Of a DNA stretch of 49,398 nt, positions 22,391 to 40,844 are shown in pieces. Origin of the DNA: Clostridiales bacterium. Its GTDB lineage: Bacteria > Bacillota > Clostridia > Christensenellales > CAG-314. The translations under genes were made by a program, and so were the position numbers. Numbering within the stretch: the first letter of the stretch is position 1; each line of letters starts with the position of its first letter. The stretch spans positions 1 through 49,398 of the forward strand of contig JAFLVL010000004.1 of the NCBI GenBank assembly GCA_022508325.1, written 5' to 3'. The notes under the pieces were generated by a model that made no database searches, was not told the origin of the DNA, and worked only from the letters and a program-made list of their open reading frames with translations.

Positions 22391-23110
22391 ATGATAGGAA
22401 CATTTATTGATGTCGGTTTCGCCGTTATACTCATTATAACTGTGCTGGTTGGACTTGCAGAAGGTTTTTCTAGGCAATTTTCTCGTCCGCTGTGCGGTTT
22501 GATAGCTATTTTCGGCGCAATCGGTTTGACAGCCTTTCTTTACACGATAATTTCACCGCTCAGCTTTTACACTGGTTTGGAGGCAAAAGCAACCGCTTTA
22601 TTTAGCGCAGATTTCTATTCGCAACAAGCATCAGACACCGACAGCTTGGCAGCGATCTTGTCCGGCGGCTATCTAAGAATACTTGCCAGCTCATCAGAAA
22701 TGATTTGGACGAAGATGCAAGCGATGAACGTCACCACTCTTGGAGATTATTTCGGCAAACTCCTAATCAAAGTTGCCGCACAATTCCTCATTTGGCTTGT
22801 GCTATATTTGGCAATAAAATATCTGTTGTTCGGAATCAAATACCTGATGACCAAGATTTCGCGCGTTGTAGTATTCAAGTCTATTGACAAAATCTTCGGT
22901 CTCGTTTGGTCGCTCGCGATAACCTATATTATCGTAATCAGCATTGTTCTGACAGCCGGCGAGCTCGTTTTGGGTCAGTTTTTCCCCGAAATAGGCAATA
23001 TGGTTGTAGAATACATTGCGCAAACCTCTGTTGTTAAATTCCTACACAACACAAACGTTATCGGCTCGTTCTTAGCAGATATTCTCGGTTGGTCGTTATT
23101 AGCCCTGTAG
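22391..23110 (+). CDS. CvpA-like membrane protein
   Basis: IDVGFAVILIITVLVGLAEGFSRQ start and several TMs. Confidence 0.65.
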   Translation: MIGTFIDVGFAVILIITVLVGLAEGFSRQFSRPLCGLIAIFGAIGLTAFLYTIISPLSFYTGLEAKATALFSADFYSQQASDTDSLAAILSGGYLRILASSSEMIWTKMQAMNVTTLGDYFGKLLIKVAAQFLIWLVLYLAIKYLLFGIKYLMTKISRVVVFKSIDKIFGLVWSLAITYIIVISIVLTAGELVLGQFFPEIGNMVVEYIAQTSVVKFLHNTNVIGSFLADILGWSLLAL

Positions 23111-23123
23111 TTTTATTTAATTC

Positions 23124-23153
23124 AGCCTGCGCATAAATCTGCGCAGGCTTTTT
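23124..23153 (+). terminator. intrinsic terminator
   Basis: AGCCTGCGCA-TAAATC-TGCGCAGGCTTTTT. Confidence 0.9.
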
Positions 23154-23680
23154 CTTACATAAAATAATTAATAGCCCCTTTTCGCATTCTCATTCGAGCT
23201 AATTCTCTAATACACTGTAATAACTCTAATACATTAATACACTGTACAATCACTAAACCAATCGAAAAAACATACAAGTCATAAAAAGACATCCGCCTCT
23301 AAAATAGACAAACTCTGCGTCTACTTTTTAGGCAGCGCGCAATTCACGCAAGCTGCGACAGCTTCATCACAGCTCATTAATTACTTAATTAAAGCAACAC
23401 TCGCCTTTTCTGCCATCGAAGCCCGAAGTCCATACGTTTCGCCTCTCACTCCTAATTATTAACATATTTTTTCAAAAAGCCAGAACGCCGTGCTGAAATT
23501 ACGCAACAATTCTGCGTAAAGTCCTACTTTAACCCAGTTTGAGCATTTATAGCACAATTTAACAAATGTTTAACGTATGCGGCCTAACACACATGGAAAC
23601 ATATAGATATCAGACCAATAAATTGCTTTCTGCGCACTCTTATAATTATAGACTCTTTCTTTCATATCCTTTTTTTTGTT

Positions 23681-23696
23681 TGTTTCACATGAAACA
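23681..23696. promoter_or_regulatory. parS site 1 (ParB binding)
   Basis: TGTTTCACATGAAACA, one mismatch to TGTTTCACGTGAAACA. Confidence 0.9.
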
Positions 23697-23885
23697 ACTC
23701 TCGACCGTTGCACATGTCACATAGACACTCTACAGTATTTTAAAACAATCGACCCAACGTCATCTAGCCCAGCTTACAAGTTCTGTCTACACATTCCTCT
23801 CGAAATCCACACTAAATATATATTACACAAACCGCATACAAATCCGTGTGTTCCTATTTTTTTATAGTAATTATCGCATAAATTA

Positions 23886-23901
23886 TGTTTCACGTGAAAC
23901 A
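23886..23901. promoter_or_regulatory. parS site 2
   Basis: TGTTTCACGTGAAACA, perfect consensus palindrome. Confidence 0.97.
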
Positions 23902-24199
23902 ACTCTTTAAACAAGAAAAGCACAAAACAGTTTCTCAGACAAAAACTGTCAATTTGGCAAAGCTTACCTTTCTAGAACCCGATCGCATAAGGGCCGCAAC
24001 AGCATATTGTGTTTTATTTCTTATATAAATGAATTACAGAATAGAATAAGCCACTGATAAGCAATCGCTGTCAGTCTTTCTTTGGAGCAAATATTCATCG
24101 GTTTTAATCGACAAAATCAAACTGAAGAGTGGCTTACGGACATCAAAACACCACAAATCGCCTTTAAACACTAAGCAAAAAGCGAACAGCAAAGATAAA

Positions 24200-24215
24200 T
24201 GTTTCACGTGAAACA
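24200..24215. promoter_or_regulatory. parS site 3
   Basis: TGTTTCACGTGAAACA, perfect consensus palindrome. Confidence 0.97.
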
Positions 24216-24339
24216 TATAAGGTCACGAGAAAGCTGGTACAAGCATTATGACCATAAATGGTGGGAAATTCGACAGAATCAACACGGCGTAAAATTCTCA
24301 AATAATATCAATGCAGCCAGACTTTAATTGATAATACAT

Positions 24340-24355
24340 TGTTTCACATGAAACA
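24340..24355. promoter_or_regulatory. parS site 4
   Basis: TGTTTCACATGAAACA, one mismatch to consensus. Confidence 0.9.
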
Positions 24356-25185
24356 ATCGTGTAAAAGAGGATGCGTCATGATTGAGACAAACACTAGAAG
24401 CACGTAAGGCAAAAAATAGTTAAATTACTTTTGTTACGAAAGGCAAACTATCTTATGAATAACGTCAAACAATGTGCCACAGAATTTCACAAATAAACCA
24501 GCAAAATACGCCGTTTAAAAGAAATTTAAGTGGTATTTCGAGCCTAAATAGACAATCATGTAGATAATTATGGTGATTTCAACGCGAAAAGCGTTGAAGA
24601 TTGTCTGTACTCAAACCACACCTCGCGCAGCTCGCATCTATATTGATTGTGGAGTCAATCGCTCAAAACTCAACACAATAGTAAGATATAAAGAAAAAAA
24701 AACGGTACATCAAATTAATCAGTAGCCTTCAGAAAGTTATTAGAAATAGTGGTAGGCAGAGATATTTGAAAACCGCACAATCCAGCAATGCAATTGGAGC
24801 CAAAGTTATCATTAACTCGCAATTAAACCAGCAAGACTCTTTGTAAAAAGTAATTTGATTCTTCGCCCCGCGGTAGTTCGTACAATCTGAAGGAAATGGA
24901 TCGAAAAAATAACCAGCCGAAAGGCTAAGTGCGGGTTATTGCAGCGAAGAAATTAGTGCTGCAACGTATTTTAGTTAATATAAAATCATTGACTTAAACA
25001 AATTATGAGCGAACGATGTTCGCTATTGAAAATCGCGGCAATAATGAATATCGCTTGTATTTAAACTTAAAAATGAGCAAATTGTCTCGCCATTACATTT
25101 TATTATCTCAGAATGTTATAAAAAATTGCCTCAATTTTTCAGAGTTAATTTGAATAATTCTGTTAGAATGGCTATTTTGACCAGC

Positions 25186-25235
25186 TTTTATAACATAATT
25201 ATTCGTGATTGAGCGCGAATAATTATGTTATAAAA
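25186..25235. repeat. long perfect inverted repeat (20-bp arms, 10-nt loop)
   Basis: TTTTATAACATAATTATTCG-TGATTGAGCG-CGAATAATTATGTTATAAAA. Confidence 0.95.
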
Positions 25236-26612
25236 TAAGTCAAATTTTTGAGCCGGCACGCCATCGGATTTCTAGTGAGAAAGCTCTACAGTCTAAACAA
25301 GCAAATCGCGCACAAATGAAAAAGTAGAAACGCCAAGTAAAAAAATTGAAACTAGAAGTAGATATTGAGATACAACAAAATTAGTGGAATCCTTCATGCA
25401 GAAAAGACATGTAACAAAACTGCAACATAAAGAGCAGAGGGAACCCCTTATCAAATTGCACGAACTCAGAGAGTCACATTGTGGAGCACATCACAATTCG
25501 AAAAGTGAATTGTAGCGTAATTCAGTATGCGAATCACCCCATTCTAGCTAGGTAGTTTCGAGGCTGACCACTAAAAAAAATTCCGAACTACATAGAGCGC
25601 GCCCCTAATCAACATTAGTGAGATTATTCCGAAAACACCACCAATACGAGATCTGCAAATAGTAGTGAGGACACACAACCCTCACTACATGCGAAATCGC
25701 AAATATATGTTATACTAGTGTTACTCTACTCACAGTAGAATGCAAGTTTAAACGCCCGAAAGCCCACAAAAAGACAGCCTAGCATCACTATATCATCAAA
25801 AAAATATTCCGACTGACATTTCCGACGTGTTAAGCAAGAAATGAGCACAAAATAAACAGTATTTAACGTCGCGAAAGCCTTGTCATTAGAAAGAACAAAT
25901 TGCATCTTGCTGTACTTCGTTAATTTTAAAAATTCATTTATGCATGATCTATTTATAGAGACATTTAATGATATTTTAGTTAGCGCGCAGCAAATTTGAA
26001 TAAACAGGTATGGCTGCAAAAGCCTAAAAAAATATGAAACAACCGAAGCGACTTTTTCAACAACAAAGTATACGTCAGGGCTTATGATAATTTATCGATT
26101 TTGTCCCCATTGAACGCCGTAACACCAAGAGTTGTGGGGAGCGAATTAGAGTTGTCACAGTTCTAATGATATGATTTGAAACGCAAAAATTGATATTTAC
26201 TTATAACCGCTAGAAACGCGAGAGTGGAGAGGACCAATAAGCTCGATAGAGGCATATGTTGTGAAGTCAAAGGTTAGCAAGGATGTAAACTTTTTAAGGA
26301 ACAAAACAAAAAATTGCATTGTGGTTCTAATAGAATCTAGCCGGCCAAGTGCCGAAGTAAAATAGCGACTTTTGTGCTTGTTCTTTTAGATATCTATACG
26401 CTTCACTTTTCGCCGTCAGAGTTCGAATTTAAGATTGATCATTTGGACAAATATTGCTAAAAAATTAGCGGCAAAATATTCCGTGGAGCGACAATAATGG
26501 GACACTAATTTTTAAAGCGCGCATTTGTTAAATGCAGTTCTACAAACCGCAGAATTTCGATTTTTATTAATGTCAAAAACTCGTAATTATAGCGCATTTT
26601 ATTCCATTTTTT

Positions 26613-26730
26613 GACATGGGGTGAGAAAAATCGAATTATTTTTGTCTAAAGCAACCAAAATAGTCAGATTTTTACAGTTTTCCTTAATTTATTTTATCGA
26701 AATTTGCCATTTTTCTCACCCCATATCGCG
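26613..26730. repeat. inverted pair of the dispersed ATGGGGTGAGAAAAA motif
   Basis: GACATGGGGTGAGAAAAAT ... ATTTTTCTCACCCCATATCGCG; 16-bp arms are exact reverse complements. Confidence 0.9.
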
Positions 26731-26859
26731 AAATTGCGTATTTATAAACGAAACAAAAAAAAGAAAAACTTAAACAAACTCTTGTTTTAGATTTTGAATA
26801 TAAGAATTGACTCGCTAATTGTTAGCATAACTTGACAGATTAGACACACACAAAAAATT

Positions 26860-27798
26860 TTATTTTCCTGAGTATTTTATAAGCATTTCAACGTTACTCT
26901 GTTCTAACAATTTTCTTGATATTGACTGTATTTCTCCTATTGACAATTCGAGTAAGTTCTTGCTTGTCATCTTTGCAAATTTCGCAACTATTCTATTTGC
27001 TGCAAGCGCATGTCCATTGATATCTTTGGAAACATCTGCCTCGTATATAAACTGCTCCAATAAGTTCCTCTCGATCGAATAGATTAGCTCGACGAGCTTT
27101 GCTCTATATTCTAAATCTGTCGGACTCATTTCGGGGTATACTGCCAGGTCTTTTGCGTGCTGCGCCTCGTGCTTCAATAACGAAACAGCAAAACTCTCAG
27201 CCGAGAAATCATACGAGGACTTAATGCAATTTATAACGCCGTCACCATCCGACTAACCGCTAGCGCCAAGCGCGCCAAATGAAATATAATCATACCAACC
27301 TTTCGAGACAAAACCGTCTAATAGTTTAACTGTGTATTCCTGACTTCCGTTGGGCAATTCCACACTGTAATGTTTCAGCTCGGCACTCCGCCATATATAG
27401 GGACCATAGTATCCGCTAGTCTTGCCGCCCAAATAGTGATATGAGCGACGCTCGAATGCTTCCGCAACACAACCATTCTCAATTTCGCATAATTTCACAT
27501 TCTCATCTTCTATTTCAAAAAACCGCACAAACCCTCTTCTCATCGTTTCTGCGGCTTGGTCGGCCTGAGTTTCAAAATAAAAAACGTCTCGGTAATATTT
27601 TTGATAAATTAACAAAATCTCGTTTAAATAATCATCTACGTCAAAAGTTAAATATTTTTCATTTTCGAATAGGTCTATGTATTTTTGACACAATTCCGTT
27701 TGTCCGCACTCGCGCAGATATGCAATCGCTCGTTTTAATTGCCCCTTTATAATATATCCATAATAAATATTTTCGTTGTATTGCTTTTTGCACGCCAT
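26860..27798 (-). pseudogene. HEAQH-motif (putative metallopeptidase-like) gene split by an in-frame TAG
   Basis: ORFs 27253..27798 and 26860..27177 share a frame; sequence between reads GASG*SDGDGVINCIKSSYDFSAESFAVSLLKHEAQHAKDL with the only stop TAG at 27253-27255. Confidence 0.75.
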
Positions 27799-30359: not shown

Positions 30360-31295
30360 CTAAGCGTCTTCGTCCTTCAAAAACTTCTCTTTCATCCAGT
30401 CTTCGACAAGGGAGCAGATACGGTCAAGGTCGTCAGCAGTGAAGTAGTCGATATATATTCTGCCTTTACGTCCGTTTCCCAGCGCAGAAACTTTGGTAGC
30501 GAAAGCGCGTTGCATGTTGGAAACGAGGCTTTTCAGTTCCTTACTCTCTTCAACAATCGGCCTTTCTTTTTTAGGCTTGGGGTTCAAAAACTCGCGTACG
30601 AGCTTCTCCATTTCGCGAACCGTCAGTTGATTGTCGCAACCCTTCAAAGCTAGTTGTAATTGGTGCACAGGTGGTACGACAACGAGAGTTCTGGCGTGTC
30701 CTGCGGACAGACGACCCTGTTCAATCAAGGAAATTACGTCGTCGGACAGCGTAAGCAGTCGTAGCGTGTTGGCTACGGCAGAGCGGCTCTTACCGATACG
30801 GTCTGCGGCAACCTCTTGCGTCATGTTAAATTCCGTCATCAGCGTCTTTATTGCGCGCGCTGCCTCAATAGGGGACAGGTCCTCGCGTTGCAGGTTCTCG
30901 ATTATGCTGATTTCCTTGATTTGTTGCGGCGTGTACTGGCGAATGATTGCAGGAATGTCGGTTTGACCTGCGATTTTGCTCGCGCGGAAACGACGTTCAC
31001 CGGCGATAATCATAAAGCGCTTGCCGATAGGGGTTACGACGATAGGTTGAATTACGCCGTGCACGCGAATACTTTCGGCTAACTCATTCAACGCTTCTTC
31101 GTCGAATTTTTTGCGCGGTTGTTCGCGGTTAGGGTCAATGTCAATGAGAGCCAGGCGTACAACATTGTCGCCGCTTGCGGTTTCTGCCGTTGCGTCTGTT
31201 GTGGGCGTGTTTTGTTGTTGCGGTTGCGTCAAATCATCAATGTCGTTCATGCCCATCAACGCCGCAAAACCTCTTCCTAATCCTTTGTTAGCCAT
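30360..31295 (-). CDS. parB: chromosome partitioning protein ParB (Spo0J)
   Basis: REQPRKKFDEEALNELAESIRVHGVIQPIVV, GERRFRA, HTH; follows parA. Confidence 0.97.
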   Translation of the reverse strand: MANKGLGRGFAALMGMNDIDDLTQPQQQNTPTTDATAETASGDNVVRLALIDIDPNREQPRKKFDEEALNELAESIRVHGVIQPIVVTPIGKRFMIIAGERRFRASKIAGQTDIPAIIRQYTPQQIKEISIIENLQREDLSPIEAARAIKTLMTEFNMTQEVAADRIGKSRSAVANTLRLLTLSDDVISLIEQGRLSAGHARTLVVVPPVHQLQLALKGCDNQLTVREMEKLVREFLNPKPKKERPIVEESKELKSLVSNMQRAFATKVSALGNGRKGRIYIDYFTADDLDRICSLVEDWMKEKFLKDEDA

Positions 31296-32064
31296 TGTTC
31301 GTCTCCTCTCTATCTAAAAATTGTTTCGCAAGCGCGCCATACGCCAATGCACCGTTGCATTTTGGCGCGTGCAACACGATTGGTATACCGTAGCTTGGGG
31401 ATTCCACTAGCTTGATATTGCGCGGCACAGGCACGGTGTAGATTTTGTCGCCGAAGTATTTGAACAGCTCTTCCGTCACTTGCTTTGACATTGTGGTGCG
31501 TATATCGTACATTGTCAACACTACGCCGTTGATATAAAGCGCTGGGTTCAAGCGTTGTTTGACGATTTTTATCGAGTTCATCAATTGACTCAAACCTTCC
31601 AACGCAAAGAATTCGCTCTGAATGGGAATGACTACGCTGGTGCTAGCCACGAGCGCGTTCAAAGTCAACAGTCCTAGGCTCGGGGGGCAGTCAATAAATA
31701 TATAGTCGTATTGGTCCTTCACCGGTTCAAGCGCGCGCTTCAATGCGCTCTCGCGAGCGGGCACAGACACCAAATCGACCTCGGCTGCGGCAAGGTCAAT
31801 GTTGGTGGGGATGATCCACAAATTATTGATAACCGTGGGCATAATGACGTCGGTTGCAGCGCAATCTCCCATGAGCATATCGTAGCAGTGGCGCTTCAAG
31901 GTATTCTTCTCAATGCCGTAACCGCTTGTCGCGTTGCCCTGCGGGTCGAAGTCCACAAGTAGAACCTTTCTACCTGCGTCAGCCACGTACGCAGCTAGGT
32001 TAATAGCAGTAGTGGTCTTGCCTACGCCGCCTTTTTGATTTGAAAATGCAATGATCTTTCCCAT
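31288..32064 (-). CDS. parA: chromosome partitioning ATPase ParA (Soj)
   Basis: MGKIIAFSNQKGGVGKTTTAINLAAY deviant Walker A. Confidence 0.97.
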   Translation of the reverse strand: MGKIIAFSNQKGGVGKTTTAINLAAYVADAGRKVLLVDFDPQGNATSGYGIEKNTLKRHCYDMLMGDCAATDVIMPTVINNLWIIPTNIDLAAAEVDLVSVPARESALKRALEPVKDQYDYIFIDCPPSLGLLTLNALVASTSVVIPIQSEFFALEGLSQLMNSIKIVKQRLNPALYINGVVLTMYDIRTTMSKQVTEELFKYFGDKIYTVPVPRNIKLVESPSYGIPIVLHAPKCNGALAYGALAKQFLDREETNNG

Positions 32065-32162
32065 AGAATCTCCGTGATTTACTATTCGTTTGTGTTGCGA
32101 TCAAATTTTTACTTATATATTGTAGCACAAGTTTCCAACTTTTTCAACAATATATTCGTTTT

Positions 32163-32192
32163 TGTGAAACAAATTATTTTATGTGTTTCACA
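32163..32192. promoter_or_regulatory. dyad of everted parS half-sites upstream of parA
   Basis: TGTGAAACA-N12-TGTTTCACA. Confidence 0.6.
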
Positions 32193-32249: not shown

Positions 32250-32383
32250 TTTTTTCCACCCCATATCACACGTTTTTCTCACCCATATCGCATTTTTCGG
32301 CGAATTAGCCCATAGAATTGGCATTTTAAGTGAATTTCGTCGCTTTTGTGCATTTTCCCTACCCCATGTCTATTTTTCGCACC
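32250..32383 (+). repeat. cluster of CACCCCATRTC dispersed motif copies
   Basis: TTTTTCCACCCCATATCACACG, TTTTTCTCACCCATATCGCATTTTT, TTTTCCCTACCCCATGTCTATTTTTCGCACCC. Confidence 0.85.
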
Positions 32384-40791: not shown

Positions 40792-40844
40792 GAATCCACA
40801 AAAGATCCACATTTTCATGGGAAAACTTCCATGACTTATCCACA
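40792..40844 (+). promoter_or_regulatory. DnaA-box cluster (candidate oriC element)
   Basis: TTATCCACA at 40836-40844, GAATCCACA at 40792-40800, AGATCCACA at 40803-40811, all same orientation. Confidence 0.65.

Follow-up and report, generated by a model that had tools for sequence, protein, structure and literature searches.

What occupies a stretch of DNA from which genes are missing, at a short distance from the genes of a chromosome partitioning system, and does it mark a centromere, a replication origin or both? The window, by which we mean the whole stretch of DNA that was analysed, is an entire contig of 49.4 kb from a MAG of 1.3 Mb that is 77% complete. Its host genus is Candidatus Fimimonas, a genus of gut Clostridia; NCBI places it under Myxococcaceae and some related MAGs are titled 'Corallococcus', while gene content and relatives are those of Clostridia. 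The comparison covered 25 genomes of the genus and 41 genomes of the family, apparently all or nearly all of them MAGs, and the relatives come mostly from gut samples. The desert and its left boundary are made up as follows.

22391..23110, plus strand: CvpA-like membrane protein (PF02674, E=1.5e-5, below the Pfam cut-off)
23111..26859, no strand: gene desert, very likely an intergenic centromere locus (ORF scan, AT-richness, Pfam on stop-to-stop frames, equivalent gap in relatives)
23124..23149, plus strand: intrinsic terminator of the CvpA-like gene at the left edge of the desert (10-pair stem and T tail)

Not a single ORF of at least 100 aa with an ATG, GTG or TTG start is found within 23111-26859, which bears out the initial annotation in its claim that the desert holds no credible CDS. 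The longest stop-to-stop frame in this interval is 121 aa in length, and the longer of these frames gave no credible Pfam match. The GC content of the desert is 0.33-0.37 as compared to about 0.45-0.50 for most of the flanking genes. At its right end (26606-26734) the desert has an imperfect 26-nt inverted repeat (85%), and the TTTTTCTCACCCC-like motifs found there recur in the gap between parA and mnmE at about 32250-32300.

A palindrome scan localized four parS sites in the left part of the desert, exactly where they had been reported earlier and with the inner pair perfect, and profile searches identified the partner genes.

23681..23696, plus strand: parS 1, TGTTTCACATGAAACA, one mismatch
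23886..23901, plus strand: parS 2, perfect TGTTTCACGTGAAACA
24200..24215, plus strand: parS 3, perfect TGTTTCACGTGAAACA
24340..24355, plus strand: parS 4, TGTTTCACATGAAACA, one mismatch
30360..31295, minus strand: parB, ParB/Spo0J/Noc family (TIGR00180, E=1.7e-53)
31288..32064, minus strand: parA, ParA/Soj (TIGR03453, E=4.1e-31, and NF041546, E=7e-30, both under the equivalog cut-offs; position adjoining parB)

The parS sites are well beyond chance expectation, with four observed against 0.44 expected at up to 3 mismatches and not one shuffle reaching four, and at up to 2 mismatches the assembly holds no other parS site. The parAB genes lie about 6 kb from the cluster, at 30.4-32.1 kb, as had been noted before. 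Upstream of parA, a 40-bp stretch (32139-32178) is kept in the contigs of nine relatives, mostly at about 86-92% identity, and may possibly be a promoter or operator of parA.

The same arrangement is seen throughout the genus. We compared the parB regions of sister genera and of the 24 other genomes of the genus. Allowing up to 2 mismatches, parS-like sites number three to six in each of these 24, and they lie close to parB/yyaC where GC is low. With the host included, the parS cluster resides in an AT-rich, gene-poor gap in 25 of 25 genomes, and in most of them 1-5 kb around the cluster is without a 100-aa ORF; the measured gap is shorter in G001, G003, G005, G018 and G022, where 100-aa frames occur near the conserved element described below or contig ends are close. 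Poor assembly of the desert, or its absence from relatives, was thereby examined as well; the relatives carry the same locus and it is therefore not an assembly artefact. Judging from these genomes, the desert is a feature of the genus and not the scar of one genome. The origin region as a whole is repeatedly inverted within the genus, and G006 differs from G008 by an inversion about the parS locus, within 7 kb on either side of the element, in which parAB-mnmEG-rsmG and cvpA-yyaC-ftsH trade places.

These comparisons bear directly on the suggestion of the initial annotation that the desert consists of heavily decayed genes, the remains expected in a degenerating genome. The neighbouring gene at 26863-27798 (minus strand), a metallopeptidase-like frame with a HEAQH motif whose pieces have no Pfam match, is indeed broken by one in-frame TAG. 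However, decay in a single genome is unlikely because all 25 genomes have their parS cluster in such a gap; moreover, Pfam remnants are absent from the desert and similarity between species is limited to a single stretch of about 100 bp. We therefore regard decay as extremely improbable, and the desert, which is ordinary for a chromosomal ParABS centromere by every feature tested, as very likely such a centromere.

A cluster of parS sites close to parAB in 25 of 25 genomes agrees with the first half of the earlier designation of this locus as a centromere/origin region; the second half, the origin, is placed elsewhere by DnaA boxes and skew. The desert itself as oriC, with its conserved element, which carries an AT-rich sub-motif, as the core, was initially favoured by three observations. 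In two long contigs, from G006 and G007, both the long-range GC skew and the gene strand bias switch a few tens of kb or less from the desert; the pooled gene-orientation change point falls within 4 kb of the element; and the midpoint of the inversions that distinguish G006 from G007 is 0.3 kb away from the element. These measures, of which pooled orientation and some inversion midpoints favour the desert, are of lower resolution. The reported flip in gene-strand bias is thus real at the scale of tens of kb only, and finer tests move it out of the desert: the third-position skew, taken independently of strand, changes over about 15 kb away in the direction of dnaN, and within the desert skew shows no consistent origin-like sign change. 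The check on GC skew that had been proposed for an origin in the desert gave a cumulative minimum for the 49.4-kb window at about 40-43 kb instead. An orientation-consistency score over all gene clusters was 0.880 for DnaN and 0.821 for the element, in agreement with an origin outside the desert.

The orthologue test was made possible by G005, G008 and G016, in which rearrangements alter the orientation of genes to the dnaN-yidC gap and not to the element. All ten such genes (rsmG, mnmG, mnmE, parA, parB, yyaC, ftsH, addB, addA and uvrC) show a reduced GC3 skew of the coding strand where they face the dnaN-yidC gap head-on, as forks from dnaN predict; few genomes are informative in this test, and genes that share a genome are not independent observations, yet the shift goes the same way throughout. 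DnaA boxes point the same way. A cluster of canonical DnaA boxes is present upstream of dnaN in 19 of 20 genomes, in the window at about 40.78-40.97 kb, and over the 20 genomes the region holds 22 exact boxes and 48 at up to 1 mismatch against 6.6±2.5 in shuffled sequence (at up to 1 mismatch), whereas around the desert element of 25 genomes no enrichment was found (5 boxes against 8.1 shuffled). A block of about 200 bp upstream of dnaN is also conserved, and trio-like ACTACTACC repeats lie within it (for the DnaA-trio consensus, see PMC5295017).

40775..40975, plus strand: probable oriC, with a DnaA box at 40836-40844 and the conserved region upstream of dnaN (DnaA boxes, conservation)

We place oriC at about 40.78-40.97 kb because third-position skew, orthologue skew and DnaA boxes agree, and it is highly probable that the origin lies here, upstream of dnaN, and not in the desert. 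The orthologue skew and the DnaA-box counts led us to discard the desert as oriC, which is now very improbable. The general expectation of parS sites near oriC is still borne out, since about 16 kb separate the desert from these DnaA boxes, which leaves it well within the ori domain. Our placement also corrects the origin call for the host genus, in which oriC goes with dnaN and dnaA is separated from its origin. In the present genome dnaA lies 3-5 kb further from oriC, and in G005 it is more than 20 kb from dnaN.

With the origin assigned to the dnaN region, one feature of the desert remained to be explained. The comparison with sister genomes for conserved blocks, proposed earlier, was carried out by searching the whole desert against the 25 genomes of the genus and returned essentially one short block, with between-species Blast coverage confined to 25119-25205 (21 contigs). 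No other part of the desert is conserved between species, and this block is the main feature of the locus, which the initial annotation overlooked.

25104..25210, plus strand: parS-linked conserved non-coding element (76.9 bits, E=1.4e-21; present in 25/25 genomes of the genus and in 7 from other genera of the family)

Every one of the 25 genus genomes has one strong copy of the element, at 53-82 bits in nhmmer and at 62.7-88 bits under model R1, and seven family genomes from five other genera carry it at E<=1e-4, which brings the carriers to 32 genomes in six genera of one family. Such conservation makes it almost certain that the element is real and under selection, which we take to be strong and purifying. 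Its linkage to parS is equally constant: the nearest parS is 90-998 bp away in the genus and, in seven of seven carriers outside it, 63-1237 bp away on the 5' side of the element, so that the distance is always within 1.3 kb. In most genomes of the rabbit-gut subclade, parS flanks the element on both sides. The element stays with parS through rearrangement of its neighbours, with parAB elsewhere; in G016, for instance, it lies between addB and cvpA, and yyaC and ftsH separate it from parB. Apart from parAB, yyaC and the CvpA-like gene, no partner gene is consistently linked to the element. In a sample of 396 genomes of the order, the sole match outside the family was on a contig (G334:C51, 37-845), with parS 0.6 kb on the 5' side; the contig belongs to a MAG assigned to another family and is probably a contaminant. 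Weak matches in G028 and G036 were discarded as they are not near parS.

The anatomy of the element was derived from an alignment of 25 sequences over 115 columns (A1), of which few are gap columns. Four sub-motifs follow each other in the order CAGAATG, GTCGGAAATTTT, AAAATTCTGTTAGAACGGCTCTTTTAACCAG and TTTTATAACATAATTATTCG, and the linkers between them vary in sequence and are nearly fixed in length.

25109..25115, plus strand: sub-motif 1, CAGAATG (A1; mean information 1.6 bits per position)
25128..25139, plus strand: sub-motif 2, consensus GTCGGAAATTTT (A1 and per-position information)
25154..25185, plus strand: sub-motif 3, the core, consensus AAAATTCTGTTAGAACGGCTCTTTTAACCAGC (A1; secondary copies elsewhere in some genomes)
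25186..25206, plus strand: sub-motif 4, AT-rich TTTTATAACATAATTATTCG (A1; conserved within the genus and absent from most matches in sister genera)
25186..25235, no strand: perfect 20-bp inverted repeat with a 10-nt loop, duplicating sub-motif 4 in the host genome (repeat scan)
23501..23565, plus strand: weak match (16.5 bits, E about 0.01) that may be a second, degenerate copy of the core

Profile matches in the sister genera mostly stop short of sub-motif 4. The host genome has a further, weaker copy of the element on another contig (G000:C23:9365-9445, 36 bits). Over the 25 genomes the core pattern matches 61 times at up to 2 mismatches and the reversed pattern 8 times, and 25 of the 61 are the main element itself; several copies away from the locus lie just past gene ends or in convergent gaps. 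The core may have a wider role, since secondary copies occur away from parS in some species, and a site for an unrelated regulator is to be named among the alternatives for the element. Likenesses of the sub-motifs to the Spo0A box and to CodY, LexA, dif and Noc sites, judged by eye, were too weak to be retained. A viral source was likewise rejected, since exact 18-mer matches in IMG/VR fall only on the AT-rich tail and the best scores 12.9 bits.

The earlier hint that something is hidden in the desert is justified by the element, whereas its suggestion of an undetected ncRNA has no support from covariation, promoter or terminator. The element might act as a minus-strand promoter, for a small RNA or otherwise, that reads from an extended -10 (TATG-T-TATAAA) to which the highly conserved ATTATGTTATA fits, and a 6-bp inverted pair (CAGAAT/ATTCTG) does show a few compensatory changes. 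However, a -35 is not enriched (2.48 of 6 matches against 2.99±0.16 shuffled), a downstream terminator is absent in 24 of 25 genus genomes, and the extended -10 falls in the part that is missing from most sister-genus matches, while secondary core copies are frequently located at gene ends or in convergent gaps. The consensus fold of -1.3 kcal/mol with a covariation term of -0.04, and of -0.3 kcal/mol for the other strand, is negligible, and no Rfam family reaches its gathering score; matches to Rfam microRNAs arise because of the plain inverted repeat. With both folds and Rfam negative, we rejected a structured RNA gene, and the promoter remains an unlikely explanation.

It may also be asked if the element exerts remote control over replication initiation or the cell cycle in the manner of datA, DARS or crtS. 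It is origin-proximal, non-coding and conserved, and the dnaA/dnaN-mnmE region of some species holds additional copies of the core, all of which would suit such a role. Yet the element has no DnaA-box cluster, a second chromosome is not known here, and the element tightly tracks parS instead of oriC, its distance to the centre of the dnaN-yidC gap ranging from about 3 to 42 kb. We thus hold this role to be improbable.

Our preferred reading is that the desert is a ParABS centromere, that oriC lies elsewhere and that the element is a docking site working with ParB-parS, and we give this combination a probability of about 0.55. A docking site fits best because the motif spacing is nearly fixed, conservation is at the level of DNA with no RNA structure, and parS is constantly near; linkers of nearly fixed length and variable sequence suggest a protein-DNA complex in particular. 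ParB would load on the four parS sites and ParA would move the complex, both being encoded 6 kb away, while the element would dock a sequence-specific DNA-binding protein as a partner of the ParB-parS complex. The task of the docked protein might be, for example, anchoring of the origin region, loading or steering of SMC, or a limit on ParB sliding. Protein binding to the element and a role of the element in segregation are our best guess, and taken by itself the assignment of the element as a segregation-linked docking site is tentative, at somewhat less than even odds. It is rather unlikely, although worth considering, that chromosomal centromeres of this family are two-component, built of parS and a second obligatory cis-element, and that a proposed protein recognises the latter and links the ParB complex to anchoring, to the loading of SMC or to the control of replication. 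The persistence of the element beside parS through repeated rearrangement, in all carriers, is suggestive of a further centromere component, and the 107-bp element provides a ready probe for finding its putative binding protein.

In bacterial chromosomes, parS is generally regarded as the sole cis-acting sequence of the centromere. To our knowledge, no companion element at parS is known, and none appeared by title or abstract in the literature searched. Several copies of parS near oriC, normally inside the ori domain, are the usual arrangement (PMC7022226), and the locus resembles the Spo0J/parS centromere of the B. subtilis type in its 16-bp TGTTTCACGTGAAACA palindromes, several of them near oriC, in the nearby parAB and in the SMC-type chromosome organisation to be expected (PMC7022226). 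It differs in that the copies of the host are all in one AT-rich intergenic gap together with a conserved element of about 100 bp. With a bacterial oriC such as that of B. subtilis, with its DnaA boxes and DnaA-trios, the desert shares its non-coding, AT-rich and origin-proximal nature, but lacks DnaA-box enrichment, and the region upstream of dnaN is the one that fits. Like crtS of Vibrio cholerae and datA/DARS of E. coli, which are short conserved non-coding control sites apart from oriC, the element is a likeness in kind only, being linked to parS, devoid of DnaA boxes and of another sequence. The RacA-binding (ram) and Noc-binding sites of B. subtilis, compared here by description only, are likewise DNA sites of the origin region for anchoring or organising proteins. 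These sites, however, are short dispersed repeats, whereas the element is one long multi-part site beside parS.
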